Origin: an uncultured Bacteroidales bacterium
GTDB lineage: Bacteria > Bacteroidota > Bacteroidia > Bacteroidales > JACABE01
Direction: 5' to 3'
DNA length: 36,991 nt
Assembly (NCBI GenBank): GCA_903936865.1
Contig: CAIZXK010000738.1
Span: 1-36,991, forward strand
Position 1 is the stretch's first letter. Every line of letters begins with the position of its first letter. A model generated the notes under the pieces. That model searched no databases. It was not told the origin of the DNA and saw only the letters and a list, made by a program, of their open reading frames with translations. Both the position numbers and the translations under genes were made by a program. Below, one piece after another: positions 2,516 through 33,801 of the stretch.

Positions 2516-2560
2516 TTAATTATTTTCAAAAAAAGTATGCGTTAGATTTCTATTTCTAAA

Positions 2561-3151
2561 TTATTCAACGTTAGACTTTAATAATGGGAGAATTGTTTCA
2601 ATTAAAAGATAAGATGATTCCTCAATTGAAAATTCTGCAGTTAATATTTCAAGAAAAGGATTTTGAGGTATTTCGTAAGTTGAATCAATACCTGTAAATT
2701 CCTTAATTATACCTTGTCTTGCTTTTTTATACATTCCTTTCACATCTCTTGTTTCGCATACTTTTAAGGGGGCATTTACAAATACTTCAAGAAAATCGTT
2801 TTCTCCAATTATTTCTTTAGCCATATTTCTTAATTCAGTAGTTGGGCTAACTAAGCTAACTATCACAATAATACCATTTTCAATTAATATTTTTGAAACT
2901 TCGGCAATTCTTCTTATGTTTTCAAATCTTGAATTAGCTGAAAATCCAAGGTCTTTATTTAATCCGGTTCTAACGATATCGCCGTCAATAACAACTGAAA
3001 TTATATTATTTTCAAGTAGTTTGTTTTCAAAATGTCTGGCAAGTGTTGTTTTTCCTGAGCAGGGGAGACCTGTAAACCAAATTACTTTTGCTTTTTGGTT
3101 TAAAAAATTTTCTTTTATTATTTTGTTTTGTTCTATATGGTTCATTAGCAT
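2561..3151 (-). CDS. cysC: Adenylylsulfate (APS) kinase
   Basis: Walker A VIWFTGLPCSGKTTLA; IDGDIVRTGLNKDLGFSANSRFENIRRIAEVSKIL; KGMYKKARQGIIKEFTGIDSTYEIP. All are CysC hallmarks. Confidence 0.93.
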   Translation of the reverse strand: MLMNHIEQNKIIKENFLNQKAKVIWFTGLPCSGKTTLARHFENKLLENNIISVVIDGDIVRTGLNKDLGFSANSRFENIRRIAEVSKILIENGIIVIVSLVSPTTELRNMAKEIIGENDFLEVFVNAPLKVCETRDVKGMYKKARQGIIKEFTGIDSTYEIPQNPFLEILTAEFSIEESSYLLIETILPLLKSNVE

Positions 3152-3308
3152 ATTTTTAGCTTAAATTGTTTTTAAAAGTCTTTGTACAAGATATCTTAAT
3201 GTTTGTAATTGATTATAAATATGTTTTATTTGCGAAGTTGTTTAAATATTAAAATAGATTAAACGATACATAAGGTTTTTGTTAGTTACATTTAATATGA
3301 GAAATAAT

Positions 3309-4400: not shown

Positions 4401-5216
4401 TTACAAAACATCGCCAAAATTGCGTTTTAAACGATGGAATGTATATGCTCCTATTGCAAAAATAATTCCGGTTAGAGTCCAAAAATAGAAATTCATTTCA
4501 GGGAATTCGAAAAACCATTTTTTCTCAATAAAGGTATAGCGATAGCCTTCGGTTATATAAAAAAATGGGTTGAATAGTGCGATATATCGATAATTTCCCT
4601 GGAGCATGCTGTAAGGCCACACAATGGGGGTAGCCCAAAACAACATAGATACTATTATATTCACAATATGTGCCATATCTTTGATATACACATTAACGGA
4701 AGCAACAAACCATGAAATACCTGAGAGTAACATAAAGGTTGCAAATAGATAGTAGAAAATTTGTATCCAGTATATTGTAGGGTAAATTTTAAAACTAAAA
4801 ATTAAGATTAGTACTATGATCAAAACCATTATAAGATGCACAACCATGCCTGACAATATTTTAATAATAGGGATAAAACTTACATTAAATTTTGTTTTTT
4901 TTATCAAATAAGAATATTCAGTTAAGGCCATACAACTCACTATCATTGTCTGGCTAATAAATAGCCAAGGTATCATAGAAACTAATAGCCACGGAGCAAA
5001 AGGCACACCGGATGAAGTATTTCCTGAGCGTAATCCATAAGTAAATGCAAACCAAATTATAAAAACATAAACAGCAGGTTGTATAAAAGCCCAAGGCAAG
5101 CCTACAAATGAAGAAAGGTAGCGGCTTTTAAAATCACGCATCACTAATGTGTATAGTACTGTCCGCTGCTCAACAAAGGAGTGTGTGAAACTATTAATTT
5201 TATTTATTATGTACAT
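4401..5216 (-). CDS. wzm: ABC-2 type polysaccharide export permease (Wzm/TagG-like)
   Basis: LVMRDFKSRYLSSFVGLPWAFIQPAVYVFIIWFAFTYGLR...FNPFFYITEGYRYTF; about 6 TM; adjacent to the matching ATPase. Confidence 0.9.
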   Translation of the reverse strand: MYIINKINSFTHSFVEQRTVLYTLVMRDFKSRYLSSFVGLPWAFIQPAVYVFIIWFAFTYGLRSGNTSSGVPFAPWLLVSMIPWLFISQTMIVSCMALTEYSYLIKKTKFNVSFIPIIKILSGMVVHLIMVLIIVLILIFSFKIYPTIYWIQIFYYLFATFMLLSGISWFVASVNVYIKDMAHIVNIIVSMLFWATPIVWPYSMLQGNYRYIALFNPFFYITEGYRYTFIEKKWFFEFPEMNFYFWTLTGIIFAIGAYTFHRLKRNFGDVL

Positions 5217-5267: not shown

Positions 5268-6569
5268 CTAATCCAAAATATTGAATAATGCATCTTTAAT
5301 AACAATTTGTGCTCCTGTTTTAAACAGGATATTAGGATTATTAACTTCGATAATTAAACCATCATGCACCCAATGAAGATGTTGTTCAACCATTTTTTCA
5401 ATGGATATAACCCCAAAAGAAAAAGTGTATCGTCCATTGCCTAAGTTTGGGAAATCAAAATCGATGACAACAATCTGAGGAATATCAGTTTGAAAGTTAA
5501 GCTTTTGTGAGTACTGAAGACTATTTATTTTCAATACCGAACCACCAAAACTACCATTAAGTGTTAACTTTATTCCAACTTTATCAATCTTGTCATTTAT
5601 GTTTATTTTTAAAAAAAGTCTGAGTTGTTCACCTCCTTTAAATTCGCTTATATGCTTCAAGGTGTTACGCTCAGCCAATGCAGCATATTGTATATCAGCA
5701 TTACCAACTCCATAACTTTCACAACAGTTTAAGTCCTGCCATATTAATTCAGGGAACTCAATTGGATAGTTTAGTTGACTATTTATTTCCTCCGATTTTT
5801 CATTTGAATTTATTTTGGTTGCCTTACTGTTTTGTGAAAGCATAAACGTATTGTAGCTTTCAGTTACAAAGTATGGATCACCTTGTGCTTTTATTTCGCC
5901 TTCATGAAGCCAAACAGCTCTTGTGCAAAAATCTTTAATAGCTGCTAAACTGTGGGTACACAACAGTATTGTTTTTCCAGCATCTTTAAATTCCCTGATT
6001 TTTCTATAACATTTTTGTTGAAACCTAATATCACCTACAGACAAGGCCTCATCAGTGATAAGAATATCTGGATCGATATTTATTGCCATTGAAAATGCAA
6101 GTCTGACATACATCCCGCTCGAATATGTATTTACCGGTTGATAAGCATATTCACCTATATCAGCAAATTCGAGTATTTGTTGAATCTTGTTCTTCATTTC
6201 CTTTTTTGAAATACCTTGAATTGCACCCAGGTAATAAATGTTTTCTATTCCGGTAAGTTCCATATTGAACCCTCCACCAAGTTCCAGCAAGGCAGTTACT
6301 CTTCCATTGCATATAAATTCTCCTGAGGATGGTGATACAACTGAGGCAAGTATTTTTAAGAGTGTTGACTTCCCGCTTCCGTTCTGTCCGATAATACCAA
6401 TTACTTCCCCTTTTTCGACATCAAATGAAACATTATTAAGTGCCTCAAACTTTTTGTTATACTTACGTCCAAATGGATGAACAAATTCCTTAACAATATC
6501 ATACCGTGAGTGATAAAGCTTGTAGGTTTTGGATATGGATTTTATGATAATTGCAGGTTTAATTGTCAT
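5268..6569 (-). CDS. wzt: Polysaccharide ABC transporter ATP-binding protein with C-terminal Wzt_C-like domain
   Basis: Walker A GIIGQNGSGKSTLLK; signature YSSGMYVRLAFSMA; Walker B DILITDEALSVGD; about 180-aa C-terminal extension ending in YTFSFGVIS...HWVHDGLIIEV typical of Wzt_C. Confidence 0.93.
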   Translation of the reverse strand: MTIKPAIIIKSISKTYKLYHSRYDIVKEFVHPFGRKYNKKFEALNNVSFDVEKGEVIGIIGQNGSGKSTLLKILASVVSPSSGEFICNGRVTALLELGGGFNMELTGIENIYYLGAIQGISKKEMKNKIQQILEFADIGEYAYQPVNTYSSGMYVRLAFSMAINIDPDILITDEALSVGDIRFQQKCYRKIREFKDAGKTILLCTHSLAAIKDFCTRAVWLHEGEIKAQGDPYFVTESYNTFMLSQNSKATKINSNEKSEEINSQLNYPIEFPELIWQDLNCCESYGVGNADIQYAALAERNTLKHISEFKGGEQLRLFLKININDKIDKVGIKLTLNGSFGGSVLKINSLQYSQKLNFQTDIPQIVVIDFDFPNLGNGRYTFSFGVISIEKMVEQHLHWVHDGLIIEVNNPNILFKTGAQIVIKDALFNILD

Positions 6570-8560: not shown

Positions 8561-8607
8561 AGTACAATGAGATTAATAGTTAAAGGATAGAATTATTGCT
8601 TTAAAGT

Positions 8608-9348: not shown

Positions 9349-9420
9349 TATCTATATATTAGTTAAACGATAGTTTTAATTTGATTATCATGAATGTTTT
9401 TTTTTAGACTTTTATAAAAA

Positions 9421-10524: not shown

Positions 10525-10531
10525 GTTTTTT

Positions 10532-12599: not shown

Positions 12600-15452
12600 T
12601 TATTCAAATTTACTTTTAGAGAAATTAATCTCCAGAATTGAGAGGCGTGGTGGGAAAGCTAGGCTAAAGTTACCTGATGATAGTGAAAGATTAGGATTGT
12701 AAGCAGGATCTTGTTTCAGAGCAGTTCCCCATCTTTCATGCATAAAAGTCTTTTCATTGATAAACCTTTGAGATTTTGTTTCTATATTGCCTTTATTTCT
12801 GGATACTGATTCGTGATGATGCAATTCAGCGAATGGATTCCAAATATTTCTATAGCCAGCTTTTTTCAATTTAAGGCAAAAATCAACATCATTGTATGCA
12901 ACTGACAAGTTTACTTCGTCCAAACCACCCACTTCGATGTATTTTTTTTTAGATACGAGCAAGCAAGCTCCAGTAACTGCTGACATTTCCTGTAAAAGAA
13001 CTGCACGACCAAAGTATCCTAAAGATTCTGACGGACAATATTGATGCGCATGGATTGCCGTTACATCAGATCCAAGAATAACTCCTGCATGTTGAATTTT
13101 TCCGTTTGGATAATATAATTTTGCTCCTACAGCTCCTATGTCCGCTTGCATGGCAATTGCTACCATTTCACTTAGCCAGTTTTGGCTAATAATTTCGGTA
13201 TCGTTATTTAATAAACAAACAAATTCACCTTTAGCAGCAGATACGGCGCTGTTATTTAAAGCGGAATAATTGAATGGCTGTTCATCTCTCAAAATAGCAA
13301 TCCTATTGTCTTGTTTTAGTTCGTCAAAAAACTGAATTAAATCCTTTTCATCAGATCCATTGTCAATAATAAGAATATCAAAAGCTGTATAAGTAGTTTT
13401 ATTTAGTATACTCATTATACAAGTTCGTAATAGCTTAGCCTGATTTTTAGTTGGTATTATAATTGTTACGTGCGGCATTGTATCAGGCAAATTGTAATGT
13501 ACCCTATACATCCCAGGTCGGATTATGTCTACATTAACTTTTGATTGAGTTCTGTTGAAAAAATCATTAACTGCATTAATAGCCGAATTGATTGCATAAC
13601 TTTTATGATCCATCGAAACAGAAGTGCTATTATCATTTAAACGCCAATGATATAAGACTTTAGGTATATGAAAAATTTCGTTTGGAGTAATAAGTTCTAT
13701 AAAACGCAATGCAAGATCATAATCCTGAGAGCCTTCAAAACCTTTTCTAAAACCACCTATTTTTCTCATCATGGCAGTTTTGTAAATGCCTAAATGGGAG
13801 ACCATATTTTGCGAATAAAATAACTCAGGATTCCAGTCGCACTTAAAATAAGGATTTTGCCGAATCCCATTTAAGTCAATTTTATCTTCATCGGAATAAA
13901 TAAGTTTAACATGGGGAATATTTACAATAGCTTTTGCTACCCAAAAAAAAGCGTGTACTGGCAAAAGATCATCATGATCGAGGAGTGCGACAAAATCTCC
14001 TGTTACCAATTCGAGTGCACTATTGGATGCTAACGAAATATGTCCGTTTATTGGTCGATAGATGACCTTAATTCTTGAATCATTTTGACGATAATATTCG
14101 AGAATTTTTTTTATTTCGCCATCTGTTGAGCAATCATCTGCTATACATAATTCCCAATATGGATAAATCTGGTTTTTTACCGAATTTATTGCTTCTTTTA
14201 ACCAATCAGGATTTGGATTGAAAACAGGCATCAGTATCGATATCAAAGATTTTGATTCAAAACAGGATATTTCTCTTTCCATTTCTTCAATATCTGCTGG
14301 CGACAATGTGTCATACTTTTTTATCCACAAATTATAATTATTCCCTTCTTCTGTACAAAGCCTGTTTTCTAATTCGCCAAATTCAATAAAATGTAACAAT
14401 GGATTATTATTTGACTTACCAACATCTTCATATTTAGTAGAATAAAAGTTTGTATCAAAATATACACTTGGATTTCGTCCCTCTTTCCAGCCTTCAAATA
14501 AATAGTGTTCTGCAGGATCAATTCCGGCAGATTTCACATCAGGATTCTCTTTCAAATAGTAATCTGCATCGAAATATTCACTATTTTTTATCAATTGTAG
14601 ATCTTCAATATTAATACATCTTGTGGAGCTATTATCATTGATGTTAAGAAATCTATTTCTTTCTGAATTTTTTTCAAAATAACTGCTTACCTTTTCTGTT
14701 GCATCAGGGATTGGTTTGCGACCTTCAGATTTTCCAGATAAAATAAAATGAACCAAAGGATTTAATCTTGTTTCTTTTACATCAGGATTTTTTTCAAGAT
14801 AATACCTGGAATCGAAATATTCAGAAGGATTTCTTCCTTCAAATCCTCCATGAATCAAGTAATGTGTTAAAGGTTCGATATTTGATTTTAAAATATCAGG
14901 GTTATTGGTTACATAAAAAGATTCATCAAAAAAACCGTTTTCGTATATTAATAATTTATAATTGGTTAGAATTTTGTTTTGATTAAATTGTTGAGGGTTT
15001 ATATTTCTTTCTTCTTTGATTCCAAAATGGATATAGTGAATTAATGGATTGATTCCAGATGCTTTTACATCAGGGTTTTCTTCCATATAAAATGCACTGT
15101 CGAAATTTTCTGATGGTTTTCTTCCTTCAAAACCTCCATAAACCAGGTAATGCCATATAGGTTCGCAGTTTAATTTTTCTATATCGGGATTATTATGTAA
15201 ATAATATGATTTATCAAATAAACCACTTTCATTAATTAAATTCATATCGGCTTTTATCAGGTCATTTGTATAGTTATTCGCTCCAACTAAAGTTCTTCCT
15301 TCTTTTTTTCCATATCGGATATAATGAGCTAAAGGATTGATTCCAGAAGCCTTCACATCAGGATATTGACACAAATATAAATCAGTATCAAAGTTTTTTG
15401 ATACTTTCATTTTAAATCTAACCCAAAAAATGAAGTGTTTTAATGCTAGCAT
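12600..15452 (-). CDS. Repeat-bearing dual GT2 glycosyltransferase (7 NPDV repeats plus two GT2 domains)
   Basis: N-terminal 'FDxxYYLxxNPDVxxxGxxPLxHYLxxGxxEGRxP' repeats, then ISILMPVFNPNPDWLKEAINSVKNQIYPYWELCIADDCSTDGE...LLDHDDLLP and HVTIIIPTKNQAKLLRTCIMSIL...LIIDNGSDE...LLNNDTEII. Confidence 0.92.
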   Translation of the reverse strand: MLALKHFIFWVRFKMKVSKNFDTDLYLCQYPDVKASGINPLAHYIRYGKKEGRTLVGANNYTNDLIKADMNLINESGLFDKSYYLHNNPDIEKLNCEPIWHYLVYGGFEGRKPSENFDSAFYMEENPDVKASGINPLIHYIHFGIKEERNINPQQFNQNKILTNYKLLIYENGFFDESFYVTNNPDILKSNIEPLTHYLIHGGFEGRNPSEYFDSRYYLEKNPDVKETRLNPLVHFILSGKSEGRKPIPDATEKVSSYFEKNSERNRFLNINDNSSTRCINIEDLQLIKNSEYFDADYYLKENPDVKSAGIDPAEHYLFEGWKEGRNPSVYFDTNFYSTKYEDVGKSNNNPLLHFIEFGELENRLCTEEGNNYNLWIKKYDTLSPADIEEMEREISCFESKSLISILMPVFNPNPDWLKEAINSVKNQIYPYWELCIADDCSTDGEIKKILEYYRQNDSRIKVIYRPINGHISLASNSALELVTGDFVALLDHDDLLPVHAFFWVAKAIVNIPHVKLIYSDEDKIDLNGIRQNPYFKCDWNPELFYSQNMVSHLGIYKTAMMRKIGGFRKGFEGSQDYDLALRFIELITPNEIFHIPKVLYHWRLNDNSTSVSMDHKSYAINSAINAVNDFFNRTQSKVNVDIIRPGMYRVHYNLPDTMPHVTIIIPTKNQAKLLRTCIMSILNKTTYTAFDILIIDNGSDEKDLIQFFDELKQDNRIAILRDEQPFNYSALNNSAVSAAKGEFVCLLNNDTEIISQNWLSEMVAIAMQADIGAVGAKLYYPNGKIQHAGVILGSDVTAIHAHQYCPSESLGYFGRAVLLQEMSAVTGACLLVSKKKYIEVGGLDEVNLSVAYNDVDFCLKLKKAGYRNIWNPFAELHHHESVSRNKGNIETKSQRFINEKTFMHERWGTALKQDPAYNPNLSLSSGNFSLAFPPRLSILEINFSKSKFE
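14358..15395 (-). repeat. Seven NPDV-type protein repeats (about 36 aa each, one single plus three doublets)
   Basis: Translated copies: NFDTDLYLCQYPDVKASGINPLAHYIRYGKKEGRTL; LFDKSYYLHNNPDIEKLNCEPIWHYLVYGGFEGRKPS; NFDSAFYMEENPDVKASGINPLIHYIHFGIKEERNI; FFDESFYVTNNPDILKSNIEPLTHYLIHGGFEGRNPS; YFDSRYYLEKNPDVKETRLNPLVHFILSGKSEGRKPI; YFDADYYLKENPDVKSAGIDPAEHYLFEGWKEGRNPS; YFDTNFYSTKYEDVGKSNNNPLLHFIEFGELENRL. Confidence 0.93.
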
Positions 15453-16821: not shown

Positions 16822-16824
16822 GTT

Positions 16825-18294: not shown

Positions 18295-18416
18295 GTAAAT
18301 TATATTTTATTTCCAACTACAAAATTATTTCAATTTTTTTAAGATAATATATAGTCCCGAATGGTATCTTGTTTTAATTAAACTATTTTTTTTATTTAGA
18401 GTGCAGAAAAATAGGA

Positions 18417-20690
18417 CTATTGAACCAAAATAACTATCTCTTTCTCCGTTTCATAATATGATAGTTTGTCAAATGCCAATATTTTCAATTTCAGTTTATG
18501 TTCGCCTTTACCAATCAGTGCAGTTGGGATTTCAATCCTCCAACCAGAGTTATTGTATGCGCTGTTGTTATAAAAGTCTGCTACATCTGGCCTTTCTGTT
18601 CCAAATGTTGATTTATAATCTTTTCCATCTATTACAACAATTACATCTGATGCCGATTTCTGCGCTGGTTGATCAATGGCCCATCCAGAAATTTTGACTT
18701 TATTTTCTGAAATTGAAATGGGTTCTTTTGTTTCTCTTATTAAATTTTCATTTATTATATCAATAGAGTATTCCGTTTTCAAAAGCGATTTATTTAGCCC
18801 TTTGAAAAAGTCAAACACTTGTAACTTTATTTTTTTGAATTTGATTTTTTGCATTTCAGAAAAATATCCGGTTCTCGAACTATTTAAAAATCTGAAATAT
18901 AACTCGTGTTCGCCTAAAGTTAAATTGGAAATAGGTATTGAAATTCCCCAACCAGCATATTTAAAATCTGGATTATCGAAATGATCAGCAAGGTCGGTGC
19001 GCTCATATATAAACTGCGATAGATATGCTTTTCCATCTAGAGAAACAATAACTCCACCAATTGGCTTTTGCTTAGATTCATCTATAGCCCAGCCTTTTAT
19101 GGTTAATGATTTTTCATCTGAAACCTCTATAAATTCGTTTGATTTTATTTCATTAATTATATCAATAGAAAATTTTGTATGTGTTGAATCGGTTTTCAGT
19201 TCTGCTATCTTTATTGGTTTGTATCTTTGTAAGTGATCAATCTTAAAAATTGGTCCAGTTATTGAAAACTTGGTTTTATCCTCTGATAAAACAACCAATT
19301 TAACAACTTGCAGACCATCTTTTATAAAGCATGCGGGTATCATTATTTGCCAATCCACTTTTGTAGTCTTGGTTATTGGCTTCTCTCCAATACCAGGTTC
19401 TCTACAATTGGTTTTAAATAATTTATTGCCAATTTGGATGTAAATAGCAGATTTTTCACCTAAATTAGCTGATGGGCTTACACTTCCCTTTATTTTAACC
19501 CATGGAGTTGTAATCAGCATAGGTTGCTTTATAGAATTGGTATTTAATTCATTTACCGATTGTAATGAATATATTGGACTTCCCGGTAATTTTTGCAGTT
19601 TTTTTAAATCAATAGGTAATTGGTAACTATGCTCTATTGATGTAGCATCTAAAAATTCTTCATACCATTGTTTATGTAATTTAATAATATCATTCACATT
19701 TTCTTTTCTTACTAATTGGCCAAAATCATTAGGGATTACCTTATAAGGAATATTGAATATTTTGGCAATTATAAGATTTCCAACTTTTTCACGAAAATGC
19801 GATGATTCGTAGAAATTCAAATTGTTGATGGCTACTGAATTCAGACCACTAAAATCATAATAATCTGTAACTTTAGAAAGTAATTTCAGGGCTTCAAGGT
19901 AATCATCCAAGTCTAAATTTAAATAAGTTGTTGATTGTGTTGGGTTTGTATAGAAAATAAGATTGATATGGTTGGTTTTTGCAATTTGAACTATTTTTTC
20001 GATTTGTTTGATGTTTTTGCCTATTTCAGGATTGGGGGTATAAAAGGAGTGAGGAATAAATAAATTCACATTTGAAAGGTGTTGTAACGGTAAAGCTTCA
20101 ATAATTGAGTCATGTTTTTTGTTTGTGATTATTCCATTTTCCAAAAGAGTTGATCTGTCAATAGTGCTCTTCATTAAAGCTAATTTCACAAATTCCAAAT
20201 CAGGTATGTTTAAGAGATAAGCTTTGTAGAATAGAATCTTTTCAATTAGTGATACCGGGTATTTTTTTCTAAGTAAATCACTTTCTGCAATATCTGGATT
20301 TTCCAGCAGTGATGAATAATCAATTCCAATAAGCAGGTTCTTAATTTTTACTCCGTTTTGCAATAATTCCTGAATATCTTCATAATGTTGAGAAGGCATA
20401 CCTCCTGAATAGGTCATGTTAAAATATCTATTATTTGGAATATTTTCTGGTGTAATAGAATTTGCCCTTGAAGATCCAAAAATAAACGAATCAAATTTAT
20501 CGGGGTTCTCTTTCAAAAACTTCATTTTCATGTAACGTTTATTCGGTTCCATTGGAATGTTTTTAAACGCTTTAAAAAATATCCCGTAAGGATCAACCAC
20601 CGTATTAAAGAATAAAATTGGTGTGCAAACCAAAAGAAAAGCAATTAATACTATTAAAAGGCTTTTATAAAATTTTGAAAACTCGCCCAT
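18417..20690 (-). CDS. Membrane-anchored SGNH-like protein with C-terminal tandem beta-type (GWAxD) modules; candidate O-acyl transfer partner
   Basis: N-terminal TM; FIFGSSRANSITPENI (GxS-like block) and NFYESSHFREKVGNLI (distal His block); C-terminal modules with GWAID...VxIDGKxY...ERxDxADxxxNxxxxxxGWxIxIP...GEHxLxxK. Confidence 0.7.
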   Translation of the reverse strand: MGEFSKFYKSLLIVLIAFLLVCTPILFFNTVVDPYGIFFKAFKNIPMEPNKRYMKMKFLKENPDKFDSFIFGSSRANSITPENIPNNRYFNMTYSGGMPSQHYEDIQELLQNGVKIKNLLIGIDYSSLLENPDIAESDLLRKKYPVSLIEKILFYKAYLLNIPDLEFVKLALMKSTIDRSTLLENGIITNKKHDSIIEALPLQHLSNVNLFIPHSFYTPNPEIGKNIKQIEKIVQIAKTNHINLIFYTNPTQSTTYLNLDLDDYLEALKLLSKVTDYYDFSGLNSVAINNLNFYESSHFREKVGNLIIAKIFNIPYKVIPNDFGQLVRKENVNDIIKLHKQWYEEFLDATSIEHSYQLPIDLKKLQKLPGSPIYSLQSVNELNTNSIKQPMLITTPWVKIKGSVSPSANLGEKSAIYIQIGNKLFKTNCREPGIGEKPITKTTKVDWQIMIPACFIKDGLQVVKLVVLSEDKTKFSITGPIFKIDHLQRYKPIKIAELKTDSTHTKFSIDIINEIKSNEFIEVSDEKSLTIKGWAIDESKQKPIGGVIVSLDGKAYLSQFIYERTDLADHFDNPDFKYAGWGISIPISNLTLGEHELYFRFLNSSRTGYFSEMQKIKFKKIKLQVFDFFKGLNKSLLKTEYSIDIINENLIRETKEPISISENKVKISGWAIDQPAQKSASDVIVVIDGKDYKSTFGTERPDVADFYNNSAYNNSGWRIEIPTALIGKGEHKLKLKILAFDKLSYYETEKEIVILVQ
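18420..19176 (-). repeat. Two tandem GWAID/ERPDVADF protein modules at the C-terminus of the 757-aa protein
   Basis: FSIDIINEIKSNEFIEVSDEKSLTIKGWAIDESKQKPIGGVIVSLDGKAYLSQFIYERTDLADHFDNPDFKYAGWGISIPISNLTLGEHELYFRFL versus YSIDIINENLIRETKEPISISENKVKISGWAIDQPAQKSASDVIVVIDGKDYKSTFGTERPDVADFYNNSAYNNSGWRIEIPTALIGKGEHKLKLKIL. Boundaries approximate. Confidence 0.9.
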
Positions 20691-20698
20691 GGTAGTAA

Positions 20699-22150
20699 TT
20701 AAAATTGAAAATAAATAAATTGTTGATCGCTTTTAAATTGACCTAAATAGACAAATACAACTAACAATACAATGTAAATCGTCCAACGGGAATATTTGTG
20801 TAAGGTTTCTATCTGAAGTACATGCTGTTTTCTACGTTGTACCCATTCGATGGATATCAATAGAATAATCAATATTAACGGAATAGATTGCAACCAGGTT
20901 AGCAGAATTTCAGGTTTAAGCAACAGGTTGTGTACTATATTAGTAATAAAGTTGAGAAATCTTCTGATGCTATCAGAACGAAAAAAAATTAATGCAAAAA
21001 CAACCAATGAAAAAGTAAGTATCATTTGAAAAAATTCTTTTATTGAAGGGAATTTTTGGTTAACAGCCACGATTTCAGAATATTTTCCTTTTCCTTTTGT
21101 TAACATTTGAGGGAGATAATAAAGCCCATTTAGTAAGCCCCAAATGATATATGTCCAGTTGGCACCATGCCAAAAACCACTTAGTACAAAGGTTGCTAAA
21201 ATATTCCTTACCCGTTTGGTTTTAGAAACTTTACTTCCTCCCAAAGGAATAAATATATAGTCCCGGAACCAGGTTGAAAGTGAAATATGCCATCTTTGCC
21301 AAAATTCTCCAATATTTCTCGAAAAGAAAGGATAGGCAAAATTCCTCATCAGGCTAAATCCAAATAATCTTGCTGTACCAATTCCTATATCGGAGTAACC
21401 TGAGAAATCACAATAAATTTGAAAAGCAAATAAAATGGCACCAATAAGTAAGGTAATGCCTGGTGTTGAAGTATATGTAGGTGCATCGAAAATCAAATCT
21501 ACCTGAACTGCTAGTGTATCAGCTATCACTACTTTTTTTATCAACCCCCAAAGTATTTGTCTGAGACCGTCTTTTGCTTTTTCACTATCAAAAAACCTTT
21601 TGCGTTCGAATTGTGGTAATAAATTTGAAGCCCTTTCGATGGGACCAGCGACCAATTGTGGAAAAAAACTGACAAATGCCAGAAAAGAGATTAAGTCTTT
21701 GGTCGTTGATATTTGCCGCTTATAAACATCAATCGCATAGCTCAGGGTTTGAAATGTATAAAAGCTAATTCCTACTGGAAGTATGATATTTAAAGAGCTT
21801 TTGTGAAAAGTCATTCCTACTTGAGCTCCTGCTTCAATAAATGAATCAACAAAAAAATTGTAATATTTAAAAAAACCAAGCAACCCTAGGTTTGCAACTA
21901 GACTGATACCCAACAATATGTTGCGATGTGTTTGTTTATCACTTTTTTGTAACAATAAACCAACGGTATAATCTACCATTGAACTAAAGAACAACAAGGA
22001 TAAAAAACGCCAATCCCACCAGCCATAAAAAATATAGCTTACTACCAGCAGAAAAAAGTTTTGTAGTCTGATGGATTTATTGAAAACATACCAATAGAGA
22101 ATGAAAACTGTTGGTAAGAATATAGCAAAAGTTAAAGAGTTGAAAATCAT
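20699..22150 (-). CDS. MBOAT family O-acyltransferase (AlgI-like), copy 2
   Basis: LPVGISFYTFQTLSYAIDVYKRQI; FLAFVSFFPQLVAGPIERASNLLPQFE; DFSGYSDIGIGTARLFGFSLMRNFAYPFFSRNIGEFWQRWHISLSTWFRDYIFIPLGGSK; GFWHGANWTYIIWGLLNG. Confidence 0.95.
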   Translation of the reverse strand: MIFNSLTFAIFLPTVFILYWYVFNKSIRLQNFFLLVVSYIFYGWWDWRFLSLLFFSSMVDYTVGLLLQKSDKQTHRNILLGISLVANLGLLGFFKYYNFFVDSFIEAGAQVGMTFHKSSLNIILPVGISFYTFQTLSYAIDVYKRQISTTKDLISFLAFVSFFPQLVAGPIERASNLLPQFERKRFFDSEKAKDGLRQILWGLIKKVVIADTLAVQVDLIFDAPTYTSTPGITLLIGAILFAFQIYCDFSGYSDIGIGTARLFGFSLMRNFAYPFFSRNIGEFWQRWHISLSTWFRDYIFIPLGGSKVSKTKRVRNILATFVLSGFWHGANWTYIIWGLLNGLYYLPQMLTKGKGKYSEIVAVNQKFPSIKEFFQMILTFSLVVFALIFFRSDSIRRFLNFITNIVHNLLLKPEILLTWLQSIPLILIILLISIEWVQRRKQHVLQIETLHKYSRWTIYIVLLVVFVYLGQFKSDQQFIYFQF

Positions 22151-22229: not shown

Positions 22230-23693
22230 TTAATATGAAATTTCAATTTTATGAATAATATACTTGCCGGAAACACATCCTGGGTCAATCCGAAAATTGC
22301 CAATTATACGCTGAAATGGTAATAAAAAAATTGTTTTTGTTCTACCAGCTTGCAAATGCTTTTGTATTTTATTAGAATCTTTATAATGCTCGAAAATTCC
22401 TGTTTTAAAAAAAAGCTGTAAAGTGGTAGCAACAGGTGTTGTGATGTCTATTTTTATAGCTTTAATATATTTTATCTGGCGAAATTTGGGTAGGATAAAA
22501 TATGGATCAGTGCCAAGGGAAGTTATACATAGGCCAGATTCTGAAATTTTTACTTCAGCAATTTGATTATTGAATTTGATTTTTTTCAACAGATTCTCCA
22601 AATTTATTTCTGTAAAAACATAATTGTTTTCTTCAATAGAAGTGGCAGCAATATCAATCTTTTTTTTAGAGTTAAATGCATTAATTTGGTCTATTTGCTT
22701 TTGCATATTTATAAGCATATCCATAAAAACAGGAACAATCTTCTCTACAGTTAGCTTTTCAATAGGTACCCATTCTTCTTCAGGATCAGGCAACTTTTCT
22801 CTGAAAAACGATTCTCGTGACTCTCCAAAGAAAATGCTCCCTATTTCATTATTTGAAGACTCATATTTTTTTATAAGTTCCTGACGTTCTGCAGGTGATA
22901 ACAAACCATACGTTTGAAACGGATCCTGTTTCTTATAATTTTCAGGCAATACTTTTGTACAAAAATCTAATAACCTATTATCATTAATATCATGATTTTG
23001 CTTGGTGCACAATTTAAGTATTTCTAAAATTTCCCGGTTGAATCCCACATTTTTGTTGAGGTTAGTGGGTGGAGGTTCAATAAATCCTGTTTTGTAATTT
23101 ATTCCTATTATTTTTATAAAATCCAGAACAACATCATCACCTATCACGTTTTTTTCAAAGGGGCGGACAATAAAATCACCTGGCTGGAAAAATTGCAGCC
23201 AATGCATTATTGGTATCTTCCAATCCATGTTGTATTTTTTTGAAAAATCCTGTATGGAATTGTATTCATTAAATTTATGTCCCCACTGCTTCCAGGCACT
23301 TTCAACCCAGTAATCCTGTCTTCTTAAATATAGTACTATTTTAAAATCACACTCCAATGTTTCAATAATCTGATTTAGCAATTTTGGCCACCATAAACCC
23401 CAGCCAAAACCTTCATTGCTTATTATCAGTTTTGTAATTTTATTTTGTTCACAATAGTTTATACAATTTTTAAAAGCTTCAATGCAACCTGGGTAATCAT
23501 TTTTTAGTTGAGCGTTTATAAACAACTCTTCGTGGTTGTGCTGATTGCCCTTCCCAAAATCTGAACCAGTGAAATTAGGATATAAAACCTGATGATTATT
23601 AATCAGGTTTTCCCTGTTATAGTTTAAAAATGATTGGATGGCACTTGAGCCTGTTTTCGGTTGCCCGATATGGATAAATATTTTGATTTTCAT
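22230..23693 (-). CDS. Sulfotransferase-like protein with C-terminal beta-type module
   Basis: IKIFIHIGQPKTGSSAIQSFLNYNRENL (5'-PSB-like loop), FKIVLYLRRQDYWVESAWKQW (3'-PB-like region); C-terminus ...SLGTDPYFILPKF...LQLFFKTG...FRIDPGCVSGKYIIHKIEI. Confidence 0.78.
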   Translation of the reverse strand: MKIKIFIHIGQPKTGSSAIQSFLNYNRENLINNHQVLYPNFTGSDFGKGNQHNHEELFINAQLKNDYPGCIEAFKNCINYCEQNKITKLIISNEGFGWGLWWPKLLNQIIETLECDFKIVLYLRRQDYWVESAWKQWGHKFNEYNSIQDFSKKYNMDWKIPIMHWLQFFQPGDFIVRPFEKNVIGDDVVLDFIKIIGINYKTGFIEPPPTNLNKNVGFNREILEILKLCTKQNHDINDNRLLDFCTKVLPENYKKQDPFQTYGLLSPAERQELIKKYESSNNEIGSIFFGESRESFFREKLPDPEEEWVPIEKLTVEKIVPVFMDMLINMQKQIDQINAFNSKKKIDIAATSIEENNYVFTEINLENLLKKIKFNNQIAEVKISESGLCITSLGTDPYFILPKFRQIKYIKAIKIDITTPVATTLQLFFKTGIFEHYKDSNKIQKHLQAGRTKTIFLLPFQRIIGNFRIDPGCVSGKYIIHKIEISY

Positions 23694-25180: not shown

Positions 25181-28100
25181 TTAAATTGCTATTGGCCGGG
25201 CAATCACATCTTCTAATGCCACGGTTTGAAATAAATCCTTGTATTTTTGCAACATAACCTCTTCACGAAATAAAATTCCAACAGCTTTATTTGCTTTTTC
25301 TCCTAGCGCTTTGGACTCGTTTGGATGATCGAGCAGATACCCGATTTTATCAACCAATTGGTGGATATCGCCCGGTTTGTAAAATAAAGCTGTTTCGCCA
25401 TCTGCCAATTGCTCAGAAATTCCAAATACAGGTGTTGTTACTATTGGAAGTGAGGATGCCATTGCTTCAAGAATTACTAATGGAAATGATTCATTGTATG
25501 AACAACATACAAAAATATCAGAGGCACTATAATAATCCATGATATTTTCCTGATTATCCAGAACCATAATATCCTCCATCTGATTAATCTCATCAATTAC
25601 CTGATGGTAATATTCATCATTGGTATTTTTGCCAATAATTGTGAAAAACAGGTCATCTCGCGATTCTAATAAAATCTTTGCAGCTTTTACAAAATCAATT
25701 TGTCCCTTTCTTTCGCAAACTGTTCCAATAATAGTTACAATAGTTTTTGTTGGCAAATTAAGTTTCTCGCATAACTGAATTTTATTTTTGGGGAATTCAG
25801 TTTTCACATCAATTCCATTGTAAATAAAATCCATATTTGCAAAATGATTGTACTTTTCAAACAACTTCATGCTTGATTTACTGACGAAAAGATTGCGGTT
25901 TGGTTTTAGAATAGTTGTTGAAATCCATGGCATTAGGTTGTTAAAAACAGGATGCTTATTGTAATATTCAAATAAGTCAATACTTTCGTGAATCCCCCAA
26001 ATGGAAGGGATTTCTGCAAAGTAGGAAGCATCGATAGCCCAAAAGTTATCCAGTGTATTTGCATAAACTAAATCAACTTTGTTCTTAGTCAATTGATTAC
26101 TAATTCGTTCAACTAATACAGAATAACTTTCCTTGTTAAGCGAAGAATAAATCTCCATAGTTTTAACTGCAATACCTTCATTCTCAAATAATTTTCTCAA
26201 AGGACCATCTTCAATACTAATGATTTCAATAGACACAAAGCCTGTTGCTTTAAAATACTTTGCTACTTTAAACATAATCAATGGTGCTCCTTCAAAATTA
26301 AGGTTATGCGTAAAAAATGCCATTTTTAATTGCCTGCTTTCTTTATTAAAGAAACGCAACCTGTTATTTCTGTTTATTTCAGTACTAAAAAATTCCTCTT
26401 TGTGTTGATTGATGTTATAGTAGGAATCGGTAAATTTTTCATGCTTTACTATAAGATTGAGGTCATCCGTTAAATAACTGAGTGGCTTTTCTGAACTCTT
26501 TCTTGAGGCACCTTCATGGTGTAGGATAATTGCATATGGATTATACACTATCCTTTTTCCTCTATTCAAAATCCTTAAACACAAATCAACATCGTTAGAT
26601 GAAATTTTAAAATTGAGCTCATCAAAACCTCCTGCTAAAAAAAACTCGTTTTTACTTATCATCAGGCAGGCAGCAGTAACTGCAGAATAGTTACGTGCAC
26701 ATATGTCGAAATTAAAATAAACATTTCCATGGCTACCAGTAAAAGGATGATGTGCTGGTTTTGGATCCATAGTTACAATTACTCCTGCATGCTGAATTCT
26801 TCTGTCAGGAAATAATGCTTTTACACCTACAATTCCTACTCCGGGCATTTTACAGTATATCAACATTTGTTCTATCCAATCTTCGGAAATAATTTCTGTA
26901 TCAGAGTTTAAAAAAATAAGGAAATCACCTGTTGCATTTTTAACAGCCAGATTGTTAATTCTGGAATAGTTGAATTCATTGTTTATTCGTTTATTTGTAA
27001 TCACTTTAATGTCCATATCTGCCATTTTGCCCAAAAAGTCAATGGTTTCCAAGTCATCACTTTCATCATCAGCTATAATGATTTCATAATTTTTATAGGA
27101 TGATTTTTTGATGGAATCAATACATTTCTGAGCCAGTATATGACCATTACGTATGGGAATAATAATTGAAACAAAATCATTAAAGGCTATTGAAGGATTT
27201 AAATTATAAATACCAATTTTGCTTTCTATTGCAAATTGGGGTAAAGAAACTTTTACCCAATTAATTCCGATATTTATAAGATGATTTTGAATTGCCACCA
27301 TACCTGCATTCACACTTCCTTCTTTTTTTGAAAGTTGCGTGGAGTGATTTCTCCAATGGTACAAAATAAGCGGAAGATGATCAATACTTTTTGAAAAGTG
27401 AGTAGCACGTAAAAAGTAGTCATAGTCCTGGCTACCATTCAAGTCAGAATTAAACCAACCTGTTTTTGAAATTATTTCCTTGTTGTATACGATGAGGTGC
27501 CTCAAGTAACAAAATGATAATGCTAACTCAGGCGACCAGTCTGGTTTAAATGCTGGAAAAGAAGCAATTCCATTGTGATCGATGGTTCCATCATCAGTGT
27601 ATAAGATGTCCGATTTTCTTTTTTGTAAAAAATTGGCAACTTGCAACAAAGCATCTTTTTCCATGATATCATCATGATCCATGAAAACAATATAATCACC
27701 GGTAGAAAGGCGAATGCCCTCGTTTGAAGCATTTGACACTCCTAAGTTTTTAGGAAGTCTTTTGTGCTTAACCTTTGGATTTCCGCTGAAAAGGGTTAAC
27801 AGTTTCTCAATTTCGGGCTCTGAATGATCATCTATTATGATTAATTCCCAATGTTCATAAATTTGGCTTAAAACAGAATTTAATGATTTGTTCAAATATT
27901 CTTTTTCAGGATTATAAACCGGGATGATGATGCTGAACTTAGGTAAAAACGAAAAATCTTGTTGCTGCTCAAGCAAAAATCTGATCATTTTGGCTGATAA
28001 GCTGTTCCTGTGAAGGTACTTATGATAATCATCAGGAAATAAGTTTGTTTCTGATTTTAATTTAATGGTTTCAACTATATCTGTCTCAGGAAATTGGATA

Positions 28101-29851
28101 GACTTAAATGGAGTTTCTTCAATTATGTCGGGGCTGATTTGCAATCGGAATTCAGCTTTTCCATGTAAAATGAAATGAAGCAATGGGTTCATCCCTGATT
28201 CAAGAACATCTTTATATTTATCAAGGTAAAATGAACTGCTGAATAATTTACTTGGGTTTCGTCTTTCAAATCCACCATAATTCAAATAATGTGTTATGGC
28301 TTTCATTCCAGAAAGTTTCACATCAGGGTTGGTCTCTAAATAATAATTTTCATCAAAAAGCCCACTTTGTGCGATTTCAGTTTCATACGATTGGCTTTCC
28401 GCCTCAGAGATTTTATCTTTAGCAGGGGTTTGCAGGCTGGGTTTTTGAATTTCAATCTTTTTAATTGTTTCTTTCAATTCACGAACCTCATCCAATAACT
28501 TTTGCTTTTCATCTGACTCCTGTTTTAATTCCAAAAAGGTGTTTTGCAAGATTTCTTCTTTTAATACCAAAGCATGTTCGAAAACTTCTTTGCCCAATTT
28601 CAAATATTCAAGTTCAATCCTCATTTCATCAAACTCTAGAATGCCAATTGCTTTCAAATCAATAAAAATCTGAGATTCATTTGTAACAAATAAGTAAACC
28701 TGATTTTCGACAGATTTGGCATTACTGCTGATTTCAAAATTAACATTAACAGTTTTACTGGATAATAAGAATTGGATGGTATTGATTTTAACAAGATTGT
28801 AGTCGTTAAGCGGATCAAACCTCAACTGAGTAACCTTTTTTGGGCAATTAAGTTTGAATTCCAACAGCTTGCTGTGCTTAAAAACCACCAGTCGCAAGGA
28901 GTTATTTTCATTATAATCAGTTGCCTTTTCTCTAAAATAAAGCTGCGCATAATGCTGCGAATTCAGGTTTTTTGTAACATTCAACTGCCAGTCCCAAAAA
29001 AATGTAATCATCCCCCAATTGATCTTTATAGGCTTTTCGATTGGATGGTTTAAAACACCGCTAAATTGTTGAGCTCTTTTTTCCAGAGCATCATACAACT
29101 TGATAATATCTGGAAAATACAATCCTAATAACTCCGGAATTTCTGATTGTGAGGCACGAACGTTGAAAATATCTTTGTCGATTATCTGAACTTTCGGCAT
29201 CGAAAGTTGAATTCCAAATTTTTGATAAAATCCGGAGATCAATACTGAAGGATTTTCAACAATCTGGCTTATATTTATGAGTAGGCAGCGATCAGCGTTA
29301 TTTTCGTAAAACGTTAATATATTGCGGTTATAGTGTTTCCATAATTCAGCGGCAATTTCGGGGTTTTCCCAGATTACCTCATCGGTACCTCTGCGATAGA
29401 GCGATTCGATGACTTCCCACGGAGCACGGTAGATAATCACAAAACAAGCATCGGGAAGTAACGAATTCCAAAAGTCAAGAAACAAGGTAGTTCTGGGGTC
29501 TTTCCAACCCCAAACCGGGTTTTTTGACTTGGTTTTAATCAGATCCATTGCCCTGTGACGCAGGTTTTCACTTACAGGAATCTGTGAAATAAGTGTTAAC
29601 CCATTTATTTCAATTCCTTGTGAAAGCAATACTTTTTGATGAAAATCAACAATTTCCAGATCTTCAAAATGGCCTTTTTCGTTTCCAGTTCCTTTGTCCA
29701 CAAGGTGTTCTCCCATATTTACCCCACCAGCTTGTAAAATAGAGGCGGTTAATGATGTTCCCGAACGATGCATTCCAACAACAATTATGGGTGCTGATTT
29801 ACGTGGAAACTGAGAATTTTTGTCTTTTATCATCATTTTCTTATTTGGCAT
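25181..29851 (-). CDS. Giant multidomain enzyme: sulfotransferase - beta-type module - coiled coil - NPDV doublet - GT2 - GT2 - GT4
   Basis: ST: PIIVVGMHRSGTSLTASILQAGGVNMGEHLV...WGWKDPRTTLFLDFW; GT2a: FSIIIPVYNPEKEYLNKSLNSVLSQIYEHWELIIIDDHSE...FMDHDDIM; GT2b: VSIIIPIRNGHILAQKCIDSI...IIIADDESDD...FLNSDTEII; GT4: IIGTVCERKGQIDFVKAAKILL...CSYNESFPLVILEAMASSLPIVTTPVFG. Confidence 0.92.
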   Translation of the reverse strand: MPNKKMMIKDKNSQFPRKSAPIIVVGMHRSGTSLTASILQAGGVNMGEHLVDKGTGNEKGHFEDLEIVDFHQKVLLSQGIEINGLTLISQIPVSENLRHRAMDLIKTKSKNPVWGWKDPRTTLFLDFWNSLLPDACFVIIYRAPWEVIESLYRRGTDEVIWENPEIAAELWKHYNRNILTFYENNADRCLLINISQIVENPSVLISGFYQKFGIQLSMPKVQIIDKDIFNVRASQSEIPELLGLYFPDIIKLYDALEKRAQQFSGVLNHPIEKPIKINWGMITFFWDWQLNVTKNLNSQHYAQLYFREKATDYNENNSLRLVVFKHSKLLEFKLNCPKKVTQLRFDPLNDYNLVKINTIQFLLSSKTVNVNFEISSNAKSVENQVYLFVTNESQIFIDLKAIGILEFDEMRIELEYLKLGKEVFEHALVLKEEILQNTFLELKQESDEKQKLLDEVRELKETIKKIEIQKPSLQTPAKDKISEAESQSYETEIAQSGLFDENYYLETNPDVKLSGMKAITHYLNYGGFERRNPSKLFSSSFYLDKYKDVLESGMNPLLHFILHGKAEFRLQISPDIIEETPFKSIQFPETDIVETIKLKSETNLFPDDYHKYLHRNSLSAKMIRFLLEQQQDFSFLPKFSIIIPVYNPEKEYLNKSLNSVLSQIYEHWELIIIDDHSEPEIEKLLTLFSGNPKVKHKRLPKNLGVSNASNEGIRLSTGDYIVFMDHDDIMEKDALLQVANFLQKRKSDILYTDDGTIDHNGIASFPAFKPDWSPELALSFCYLRHLIVYNKEIISKTGWFNSDLNGSQDYDYFLRATHFSKSIDHLPLILYHWRNHSTQLSKKEGSVNAGMVAIQNHLINIGINWVKVSLPQFAIESKIGIYNLNPSIAFNDFVSIIIPIRNGHILAQKCIDSIKKSSYKNYEIIIADDESDDLETIDFLGKMADMDIKVITNKRINNEFNYSRINNLAVKNATGDFLIFLNSDTEIISEDWIEQMLIYCKMPGVGIVGVKALFPDRRIQHAGVIVTMDPKPAHHPFTGSHGNVYFNFDICARNYSAVTAACLMISKNEFFLAGGFDELNFKISSNDVDLCLRILNRGKRIVYNPYAIILHHEGASRKSSEKPLSYLTDDLNLIVKHEKFTDSYYNINQHKEEFFSTEINRNNRLRFFNKESRQLKMAFFTHNLNFEGAPLIMFKVAKYFKATGFVSIEIISIEDGPLRKLFENEGIAVKTMEIYSSLNKESYSVLVERISNQLTKNKVDLVYANTLDNFWAIDASYFAEIPSIWGIHESIDLFEYYNKHPVFNNLMPWISTTILKPNRNLFVSKSSMKLFEKYNHFANMDFIYNGIDVKTEFPKNKIQLCEKLNLPTKTIVTIIGTVCERKGQIDFVKAAKILLESRDDLFFTIIGKNTNDEYYHQVIDEINQMEDIMVLDNQENIMDYYSASDIFVCCSYNESFPLVILEAMASSLPIVTTPVFGISEQLADGETALFYKPGDIHQLVDKIGYLLDHPNESKALGEKANKAVGILFREEVMLQKYKDLFQTVALEDVIARPIAI
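28140..28364 (-). repeat. NPDV-repeat doublet inside the giant fusion protein
   Basis: LFDENYYLETNPDVKLSGMKAITHYLNYGGFERRNPS followed directly by KLFSSSFYLDKYKDVLESGMNPLLHFILHGKAEFRLQ; boundaries approximate. Confidence 0.88.
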
Positions 29852-30614
29852 GGTTACAATTATTCCAAACGAATTTATCCCCTAAAAGTTCGGCTAGTTT
29901 TTTACCGTCCCCTATGAAATTGGCGGCAAGTCTTTCTCTTATTTCTGTGTCTAAAGTGGGGTAGGCATTGGTATTTTGCGGAATAAGATTATCAGGCATA
30001 ATTTTGCGGATTCCCAAAAACCGATACAGTTCAACCAGTTCGTTTTCAGGATTTTCGAAAAAATTTTCGCTTTTAATAAAATACATTTGCTTAAGACGAT
30101 AATATCGGAGCCACCTTGAAATTTGCTGAAAGTACATTCCCCTTGCGACGTATGTAAAACTTCTGTATGGCTTGCTTTGCGTTATTTGGTTGTTGATTAA
30201 TTTTTGCTCTTCATCAGATGTTCTTTCAGGCTCTTTTGCGATTGCTTCTTCAAATGAATTAAGAGGTTCTGTTTTATACTTCTTTTCATGCCAGAAATGC
30301 GAGTAAGCTCTGTCAACAGGATTTCTCAACATCACTATTAATTTTACTTTGGGTAGATGTTTAGCCACTCTAGCTGGCACCAGCGGATGAAACAAATAAT
30401 AAGGAGAGGCTTCACCTGTTAGCTTTCTTTCAAAAATGGGTTTTTGAGGGAATTGATTTTTATACCAGTTCCACCCCATCGAATAATCGAGTGAAAAAAA
30501 CTGGATCTCTTTCTGTAAAGGTAAAATCAGATCAGGATGCTGCCTCAAATAATGGAACAACGATGATGTACCGCACTTTTGTGCGCCTATAATCAGGAAA
30601 TCTGGTTTTGGCAT
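29841..30614 (-). CDS. Sulfotransferase domain protein (Sulfotransfer_1 / heparan-sulfotransferase-like)
   Basis: MPKPDFLIIGAQKCGTSSLFHYLRQHPDLILPLQKEIQFFSLDYSMGWNWYKNQFP; KLIVMLRNPVDRAYSHFWHEKK. The 3' end overlaps the start of the 1556-aa ORF by 11 nt. Confidence 0.93.
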   Translation of the reverse strand: MPKPDFLIIGAQKCGTSSLFHYLRQHPDLILPLQKEIQFFSLDYSMGWNWYKNQFPQKPIFERKLTGEASPYYLFHPLVPARVAKHLPKVKLIVMLRNPVDRAYSHFWHEKKYKTEPLNSFEEAIAKEPERTSDEEQKLINNQITQSKPYRSFTYVARGMYFQQISRWLRYYRLKQMYFIKSENFFENPENELVELYRFLGIRKIMPDNLIPQNTNAYPTLDTEIRERLAANFIGDGKKLAELLGDKFVWNNCNHAK

Positions 30615-31517: not shown

Positions 31518-32627
31518 TTAAGATGATTTTGTTTTTGTAAAATAATTCAGAATTTGTTTTAGCAAGGCCAATCTACTCATTCCATTGAAAGGATTTTTAA
31601 GTCTGGTTTTCAGTGCCATGTTTTCATCTGACAAAGTGGAAATATTTTTTTTTGCATTTTCGATATGGTTGCGCAGGATAACAATTTCATTGCCTAAACT
31701 TTCGGCAATTACTTCTATTTGCATTCGGCTAAATGTAAGCGTTTCAGGAATCGGATCAGGTTTCCGGATATCGCATTGATAGCGGTGCTTTTCGGGGATT
31801 TGTAAATTAACCCGCTCGATTGTTTCTCTAAGAACTAACCAGATAGACTCCTGAACTTCTATAGGAGGCAGGAGTTTTTTCGGTATGATGTCCGGTAATC
31901 TTTCGCATAAAGGATCTGAGAAAAACCGACCTGATGGACCAAGTATTTTATTTAGCGAAAGTTGAAAGAAATGTTCCGACCATGTTAATGAGCGGTTTAT
32001 ATGATCAACAGGCTGAAAAGAAAATACATCAACCGGTAGATCAAGCCATCCGGCAACTTCGTCAATCAATCTGTCGGAGCAAATACTGTAATTTCTAATG
32101 GTGAGTGTAACGTTTTTACATTTTTTCAGTCGGTTTAGCAAATGCTCAACTTGAAATATTATATCCCACCCAATTTCAGGATGCTCATGCAAATTGTTCA
32201 ATGAAATATCATGAACACCTCTTCGTTTGACACGCTGTTGCATGACTGAAACTGCTCTTTCAATTGGGTTTCGAATAAAAAATAGCAACTGGATGGTGTC
32301 AAAACCATATTTTGCCGCAACTTCTTCAAGATAATCTATTGCATTAGATTTGGTGAAAAACTTAAAGATACTTTCGCTGGTGAATAATAATGCTTCTCCT
32401 AACTTTAATTGGTTTTTTGCCAGTTGACTTTCAAAATGTTCTTTAGATTCGAATAGATTAACTGCATTGCCCGAAGTGATGGCGTTGGGATTGTCATTCA
32501 GCCAATCTTCGCCATAAGCGTAAATGATGCCATGTTTTGCCAAAGATTCACGGTTCAACCTCAAACAAGCTTGAATCCAGCTTGTTCCGGTTTTTCCGTG
32601 GCCGATATGTAAGAAAAGTGTAGCCAT
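31518..32627 (-). CDS. Sulfotransferase-like protein
   Basis: MATLFLHIGHGKTGTSWIQACLRLNRESLAKHGIIYAYG (PAPS-binding-type loop); QLLFFIRNPIERAVSVMQQRVKRRG (3'-PB-like). Confidence 0.8.
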   Translation of the reverse strand: MATLFLHIGHGKTGTSWIQACLRLNRESLAKHGIIYAYGEDWLNDNPNAITSGNAVNLFESKEHFESQLAKNQLKLGEALLFTSESIFKFFTKSNAIDYLEEVAAKYGFDTIQLLFFIRNPIERAVSVMQQRVKRRGVHDISLNNLHEHPEIGWDIIFQVEHLLNRLKKCKNVTLTIRNYSICSDRLIDEVAGWLDLPVDVFSFQPVDHINRSLTWSEHFFQLSLNKILGPSGRFFSDPLCERLPDIIPKKLLPPIEVQESIWLVLRETIERVNLQIPEKHRYQCDIRKPDPIPETLTFSRMQIEVIAESLGNEIVILRNHIENAKKNISTLSDENMALKTRLKNPFNGMSRLALLKQILNYFTKTKSS

Positions 32628-32628
32628 T

Positions 32629-33801
32629 TTAAGTATTAGATTTTTTAAATAATTCCGAAGACCTATAAAGTTTTATTGCTTGGGATAAGATGAATTTCAA
32701 TATCCTGAATCGTTGAGTGTAAGAAAGTAATGTATTTTGCTTATTTATTGTTCGCCAAAGTTCTAAAATAATAGTCTTTCGATGATTTAAAGGTAAATGC
32801 AATATGTTTTTTTTAAGCCAATCAAGCGTTTGCTGGCTCCAAATATCAGCATTAGGTTTCAAATCCTCATCCAAAAAACGATAATCCTGAAGCGCAAACT
32901 CACTACAAAGCCAATTTACATCTTCCGACAAAGTATCCCAAACTTTTTTGCTCATGTCGCGAGATAGCATAAATTTCTGCCCCGGCATTTCCAATAAAAG
33001 CTTCATCACCTCAAATTTCTTTTGTAGTTGCGGAAGGTAATCGGAAGTATGATTGCAGTTGCGATTTATGGCATTTAGCAATACAAAAGTTTCGTAGTTA
33101 GTTGCAGGATTTTCGTGCAGAAGAACAGGTTTTATTTTGTCCGGTAAATATTTATCAATAAGAGCCAATAATGCTCCCGCCGGGCCAAAAGGGTGGCAGA
33201 TGGCATCTTCATACCTCACTACAGTAATGTGCTCCTGTCCTATAACTTCGGATAAAACTGTAATCAGATTTCGGTATAAATGTGTTTGTTGAAGTTTACG
33301 CTCAATAACTTTTTTTTCCTGTAATATAGAGTTATAAACTTTGGCCAATAACGAACTTCGAAATCGTGAAACAGGATGGCGGCACATCAAAACCACCCGG
33401 ATATTTACTTCCGGATGAGTAATTTTTGTTAACCAGACTTTCAGATTTCTGAGTTCATCTATGTCAAAAAGTGAAATATCTTCCCCTGAGATAATCAGCG
33501 TTTCACCAATAAAGTCGGCTATTTGCGCTTCAATTTGCCGTTGATATTCTTGATGAAGTTCTTGGATTGCCTCCCTGTTTGTAATGCCAAAATTAACGTT
33601 AATGTGGTATTTTTCAGGTTCCTTACAAAAAAGGCTGTAAATGGGTATCGAATGGTTGCTGATAAGGTTGTCGCCTGCTATAAAAGCAGGATATAAAATA
33701 CCGTTATCAGATAATTTTGCCCGTTCTAAGTAAAGGGTATTTTGAATGGTGGTAGAGGCGGTTTTGTGAACGCCGATATGCAGAAAGATATTTTTGATCA
33801 T
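32629..33801 (-). CDS. Sulfotransferase-like protein
   Basis: MIKNIFLHIGVHKTASTTIQNTLYLERAKLSDNGILYPAF; IRVVLMCRHPVSRFRSSLLAKVYN; same overall layout as the neighbouring 31518..32627 protein. Confidence 0.78.
   Translation of the reverse strand: MIKNIFLHIGVHKTASTTIQNTLYLERAKLSDNGILYPAFIAGDNLISNHSIPIYSLFCKEPEKYHINVNFGITNREAIQELHQEYQRQIEAQIADFIGETLIISGEDISLFDIDELRNLKVWLTKITHPEVNIRVVLMCRHPVSRFRSSLLAKVYNSILQEKKVIERKLQQTHLYRNLITVLSEVIGQEHITVVRYEDAICHPFGPAGALLALIDKYLPDKIKPVLLHENPATNYETFVLLNAINRNCNHTSDYLPQLQKKFEVMKLLLEMPGQKFMLSRDMSKKVWDTLSEDVNWLCSEFALQDYRFLDEDLKPNADIWSQQTLDWLKKNILHLPLNHRKTIILELWRTINKQNTLLSYTQRFRILKFILSQAIKLYRSSELFKKSNT

Follow-up and report, generated by a model that had tools for sequence, protein, structure and literature searches.

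The window analysed here, one entire contig of 36,991 nucleotides, comes from the nearly complete but fragmented genome (779 contigs) of an uncultured Bacteroidales bacterium. On its minus strand, at 25181-29851, lies the open frame P0001, which runs for 1556 codons without a stop, while the plus strand across the same positions is packed with stops; the single long frame proposed in an earlier sequence-only reading of this DNA is real. The encoded protein has the domain order sulfotransferase, beta module, coiled coil, NPDV repeats, GT2, GT2 and GT4. The nearest relative of its sulfotransferase, with 75% identity, is found in an uncultured Bacteroidetes MAG (L012). Because this relative has AGG at the position of the ATG at which the frame had been taken to begin, and keeps an ATGATG five codons downstream, the likely start of translation is 29836 or 29833. 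All features of P0001 described below, and the neighbouring genes, lie on the minus strand.

The N-terminal domain (aa 20-222; 29186..29794) matches the Pfam family Sulfotransfer_3 over aa 21-215 with 39.5 bits (cut-off 27) and is modelled by AlphaFold mostly at high confidence. In a PDB fold search with this head the best 17 matches are all sulfotransferases (best E 2.2e-7), the top one being human TPST2 with PAP (PDB 3AP3). The loop expected to hold the 5'-phosphosulfate of PAPS, GMHRSGTS (aa 26-33; 29753..29776), is recognisable by motif and by conservation, with G26, R29, S30 and S33 invariant among relatives that had not been selected by the P-loop pattern. KDPR (aa 117-120; 29492..29503) aligns with NKDP of TPST2, and the 3'-phosphate-binding R-x7-S (RAPWEVIES, aa 142-150; 29402..29428) was assigned by its motif and by the same alignment; R142 and S150 are at least 90% conserved in a set of relatives most of which were picked by the P-loop itself. 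The P-loop, KDP and R-x7-S segments of the two proteins align, although TPST2 is a Golgi enzyme that sulfates protein tyrosine and shares only about 20% identity with the head of P0001. By fold and motif the head is a sulfotransferase, with a predicted activity that follows from sequence and model. The PAPS-type sulfotransferase suggested earlier is borne out by the Pfam match, the three motifs and the fold, and the head is neither a different P-loop fold nor devoid of PAPS-binding residues.

Behind the head follow a beta module (aa 296-422; 28586..28966), possibly a carbohydrate-binding domain, and a short coiled coil of about 50 residues (approximately aa 424-475; 28427..28582); a LRFDPLN motif is found at aa 343-349. 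The beta module also occurs behind methyltransferase, GT2 and AlgX heads: in the same genome it stands behind a GT2 head and is followed by a coil and NPDV, in another it follows a methyltransferase head, and in a sister genome it is present on an AlgX-type protein as well as in a protein of the order beta module-coil-NPDV repeats-GT2-GT2, the head of which is lost at a contig end. The plasmid search returned no relatives of the beta module and coil, and the viral contigs none of the beta module. On a home-made heptad score, as opposed to a published predictor, the coil reaches 12.7 against a mean of 8.9 and a maximum of 10.9 for shuffled sequences (n=40), and the region is helical in the AlphaFold model (aa 421-441 and 447-468). 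Only two proteins in the window score above 12 and above all of their shuffles, P0001 and the sulfotransferase-like protein at 31518-32627. Both the beta-type module and the heptad-like stretch of the sequence-only reading are therefore present, while of its NPDV doublet one unit, at aa 508, is exact and the other degenerate. The NPDV repeat region (aa 490-580; 28112..28384) is helical in a low-confidence model, and the AlphaFold models of the beta and NPDV parts are poor.

The C-terminal half comprises a first GT2 module (approximately aa 637-832; 27356..27943) with DHDD at 725, a second (approximately aa 892-1125; 26477..27178) with NSDT at 982, and a GT4 module (approximately aa 1180-1544; 25220..26314) with E-x7-E from 1454; a HHEGASR motif lies at aa 1111. 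A Pfam search gave two Glycos_transf_2 stretches, the best from aa 640 (1.6e-46), Glyco_tranf_2_3 at aa 894-1118 and Glycos_transf_1 at aa 1364-1522 (4.9e-33), with weaker matches to the family-4 N-terminal domains, so that membership of GT2 and GT4 is backed by family profiles and catalytic motifs alike. The model of this half is of low confidence overall and draws on an alignment of four sequences only. No kinase, methyltransferase or Kdo-transferase domain was found in P0001, which places it outside the WbdD and WbbB families by homology.

P0001 is embedded in a gene cluster predicted to serve glycan assembly and export. Just upstream lies a separate sulfotransferase gene (Sulfotransfer_1; 29841..30614), and L012 has the same pair, with 82% identity for the upstream gene. 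The cluster also contains an APS kinase (2561..3151), the sole one detected in the genome, so PAPS can be made. A Wzm-type ABC permease (4401..5216) accompanies a Wzt ATPase (5268..6569) with a C-terminal carbohydrate-binding domain (Wzt_C, E 4.8e-14), and a second multi-glycosyltransferase protein (12600..15452), consisting of NPDV repeats, GT2 and GT2, is 36% identical to residues 493-1117 of P0001. Three further proteins (22230-23693, 31518-32627 and 32629-33801) open with P-loop-like HIGxxKT(G/A)(S/T) motifs and may be sulfotransferases, an identity that received no confirmation from Pfam or PDB searches; the second carries its coiled coil at the end of the protein. The stretch 15604-22150 encodes an AlgX-like protein and two MBOAT acyltransferases, which suggests periplasmic O-acylation of the same glycan, and the genome is rich in type IX secretion tails. 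A search for a 16S gene gave none, and it is these tails and the nearest relative that place the organism in Bacteroidota. A sister genome of the same genus holds a cluster (L132, G001:C91, 1-17296) with matching Wzm, Wzt, RgpF, MBOAT and AlgX, where the beta-coil-NPDV-GT2-GT2 protein matches the window protein at 12600-15452 (57%) rather than P0001, a sequence pattern showing modules apparently reshuffled between clusters.

With the sulfotransferase domain as query against 396 genomes of the phylum, and the entire protein as query against 59 relatives and the plasmid collection, no second case of the complete seven-part order came up; partial versions within a single frame do occur. A complete Desulfolutivibrio plasmid (L047) encodes sulfotransferase, beta module, coil and NPDV as a single frame, the beta module being identified there from its motif and by alignment; genes for an APS kinase and an ABC transporter lie close by. 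In another genome (L031) one frame joins sulfotransferase, GT2 and GT2. The coil of the Desulfolutivibrio protein (7983-11573) is made up of numerous nearly identical units, each about 32 residues long, and coil length, and with it any ruler, could be easily variable. The sulfotransferase-GT2-GT2 gene of L031 is one of two sulfotransferase genes just downstream of a frame (1456-3660) that itself joins Wzt, Wzt_C and a GT2-like stretch. These single-frame versions make it unlikely that P0001 is an artefact of joining two genes. Such an artefact might be suspected from the 779 contigs of the assembly, from the lack of the exact complete order in any other sequence searched, and from the closest relative breaking off at aa 122; given an intact frame of 1556 codons and partial versions of the order in single frames of complete plasmids and another genome, we regard it as scarcely credible.

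Separate versions of the two halves are widespread. Alphaproteobacterial plasmids commonly carry sulfotransferase-coiled-coil genes, in several cases beside NPDV-GT-GT(-GT4) genes. On a plasmid of Sphingobium sp. V4, a sulfotransferase-coiled coil-NPDV gene neighbours an NPDV-GT2-GT2-GT4 gene that is collinear with residues 486-1520 of P0001; this pair (WP_285833787/WP_285833786) shares the modules of P0001 and has an ABC transporter in its cluster, but comprises two genes, which lie on opposite strands and bear no annotation beyond hypothetical protein and glycosyltransferase. Plasmids of Paracoccus and Phaeobacter carry similar pairs with other glycosyltransferase sets, and in an Enterobacter/E. 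coli plasmid cluster a methyltransferase-coil-NPDV gene adjoins NPDV-GT2-GT2, with an ABC transporter on the Enterobacter plasmid. Since the halves occur as neighbouring plasmid genes, P0001 looks, at the level of sequence, like a one-chain fusion of a common sulfotransferase-coil/NPDV-GT gene pair. A coil follows the head in 12/16 plasmid proteins inspected for similarity to the P0001 sulfotransferase; under a stricter shuffle test it was called in 7/14 sulfotransferase frames versus 9/155 other frames of the same loci (p = 4e-5, from related and hence not independent species). Among Bacteroidota, Wzm/Wzt lie near 7/8 coil- or GT-bearing sulfotransferase frames versus 2/10 stand-alone ones, six of the eight coming from one family, so that the comparison is no independent test. 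GT2-sulfotransferase fusions, with no coil called, are found in Methylosinus and Acuticoccus.

We suggest that P0001 could polymerise an ABC-exported glycan, measure its length and cap it with sulfate, a reading to which we give an even chance. The GT2, GT2 and GT4 modules would extend a lipid-linked chain at the membrane, while the beta module and coiled coil would hold the sulfotransferase away from them; when growth has brought the non-reducing end of the chain within reach of the head, sulfate would be moved onto it from PAPS. The cap would stop growth, and the carbohydrate-binding domain of Wzt would recognise the sulfated end for export. Capping is favoured because the order of putative cap enzyme, beta module, coil, GT2 and GT2 matches that of Klebsiella O7 ORF6 and resembles O12 WbbB, because coils recur behind plasmid sulfotransferases, and because Sphingobium V4 and, similarly, Paracoccus and Phaeobacter encode the two halves in separate genes that lie close together. 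It is further favoured by the methyltransferase-coil-NPDV protein that holds the same slot in the Enterobacter/E. coli cluster, by the Wzt_C domain, as carbohydrate-binding domains of Wzt read caps, and by the restriction of high coil scores in the window to P0001 and the one sulfotransferase-like protein. Several observations weigh against it: the short coil might serve simply as a spacer in a dimer, the chain may carry much sulfate, and a sulfated end would then be a poor mark, given the other sulfotransferase and the three possible ones, the beta module is not terminator-specific as it also sits on AlgX-type proteins, heads with lost P-loops stand on coils in one Bacteroidota family, and the cap types listed in the literature (methyl, methyl-phosphate, Kdo) do not comprise sulfate.

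The sequence-only reading proposed that the fusion would couple sulfation to chain building, with sulfate added during repeat-unit assembly. A physical tie between sulfation and chain assembly before export is supported, but sulfate on each repeat unit is not favoured over capping, given the methyltransferase in the same slot of the plasmid cluster and Wzt_C; chain capping is more likely than per-repeat sulfation. An evenly sulfated chain, in which the head modifies a sugar in every repeat as the glycosyltransferases add it, would fit the fusion of the head to polymerase modules, the PAPS supply and second sulfotransferase in the cluster, and the existence of other fusion orders such as those of Methylosinus and Acuticoccus. 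Yet beta module and coil part the head from the glycosyltransferases in the manner of terminators, the same slot is filled elsewhere by methyltransferase heads, and other sulfotransferases are available for internal sites, so that we consider this scenario unlikely while giving it real weight. We find it harder to believe that the head sulfates a non-terminal, non-repeated sugar of an adaptor or side branch, with a coil that only dimerises or anchors: no specific pointer to an adaptor residue emerged and the GT2-GT2 pair, being polymerase-like, speaks for action on the main chain, even though the coil is short and the conservation of the 29841-30614 sulfotransferase with P0001 in L012 suggests two specific sulfation steps.

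Within one Bacteroidota family, sulfotransferase-like heads are found on coiled coils beside Wzm/Wzt (L032-L035, L126). The heads of L032-L034 have degenerate P-loops and are possibly repurposed or dead, and P-loop loss of this type shows that a sulfotransferase-like head can persist without sulfation. A catalytically dead head serving as a glycan-binding scaffold in P0001 could be argued from these related coil-bearing proteins; with its own key motifs intact, and the only APS kinase detected in the genome sitting within the cluster, it is very improbable.

The wider proposal, which we put forward more tentatively than the role of P0001 itself, is that sulfate represents a further cap type, installed by a widespread and unannotated class of sulfotransferase-coiled-coil proteins of which P0001 would be the one-chain cap enzyme-ruler-polymerase version. 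If true, sulfate would be added to the few caps by which ABC-exported glycans are stopped and certified, and a function could be assigned to many sulfotransferase-coiled-coil genes that at present rank as hypothetical; bacteria building end-sulfated surface chains could be predicted, and a one-protein system would be at hand for testing how capping sets chain length.

Caps described in the literature comprise methylation, (methyl)-phosphorylation and Kdo, with sulfate absent, and it is the capped end that qualifies a chain for a Wzt whose carbohydrate-binding domain reads caps (PMC9445017); the open-access literature searched holds no report of a sulfotransferase terminator, an absence that is not proof of novelty. 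A sulfotransferase-domain protein, ORF19, is encoded in the Wzm/Wzt O-antigen cluster wbsalmo of Aeromonas salmonicida beside WbbB, but is small and separate, and no sulfate was seen in the O-antigen structure (PMC4483657). WbdD/WbdA of E. coli O9a and K. pneumoniae O3 likewise combine an N-terminal cap enzyme on a coiled-coil ruler with a multi-glycosyltransferase polymerase, although as two proteins, with a kinase-methyltransferase and with no beta module or NPDV reported in the open-access literature searched. O7 ORF6 and O12 WbbB are both experimentally characterised terminator-polymerases (PMC11231755). WbbB (K. pneumoniae O12/Raoultella terrigena) unites polymerase and N-terminal terminator in one protein, its terminator being a beta-Kdo glycosyltransferase (GT99) in place of the sulfotransferase of P0001. 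O7 ORF6 of Klebsiella pneumoniae, encoded beside Wzm/Wzt, joins methyltransferase, kinase, an Ig-like domain described as a CBM, coiled coil, GT2 and GT2 in one protein; chain capping is carried out by its distal enzyme, and its coil has been described as the ruler that typifies the class (PMC11231755). P0001 differs by a sulfotransferase in place of the methyltransferase and kinase that produce methyl-phosphate, by NPDV repeats and by an extra GT4, and shares with this layout a putative cap enzyme on the far side of the coil from the glycosyltransferases, a coil, albeit short, between cap enzyme and polymerase, and a Wzm/Wzt transporter in the cluster with a domain of the cap-reading type.
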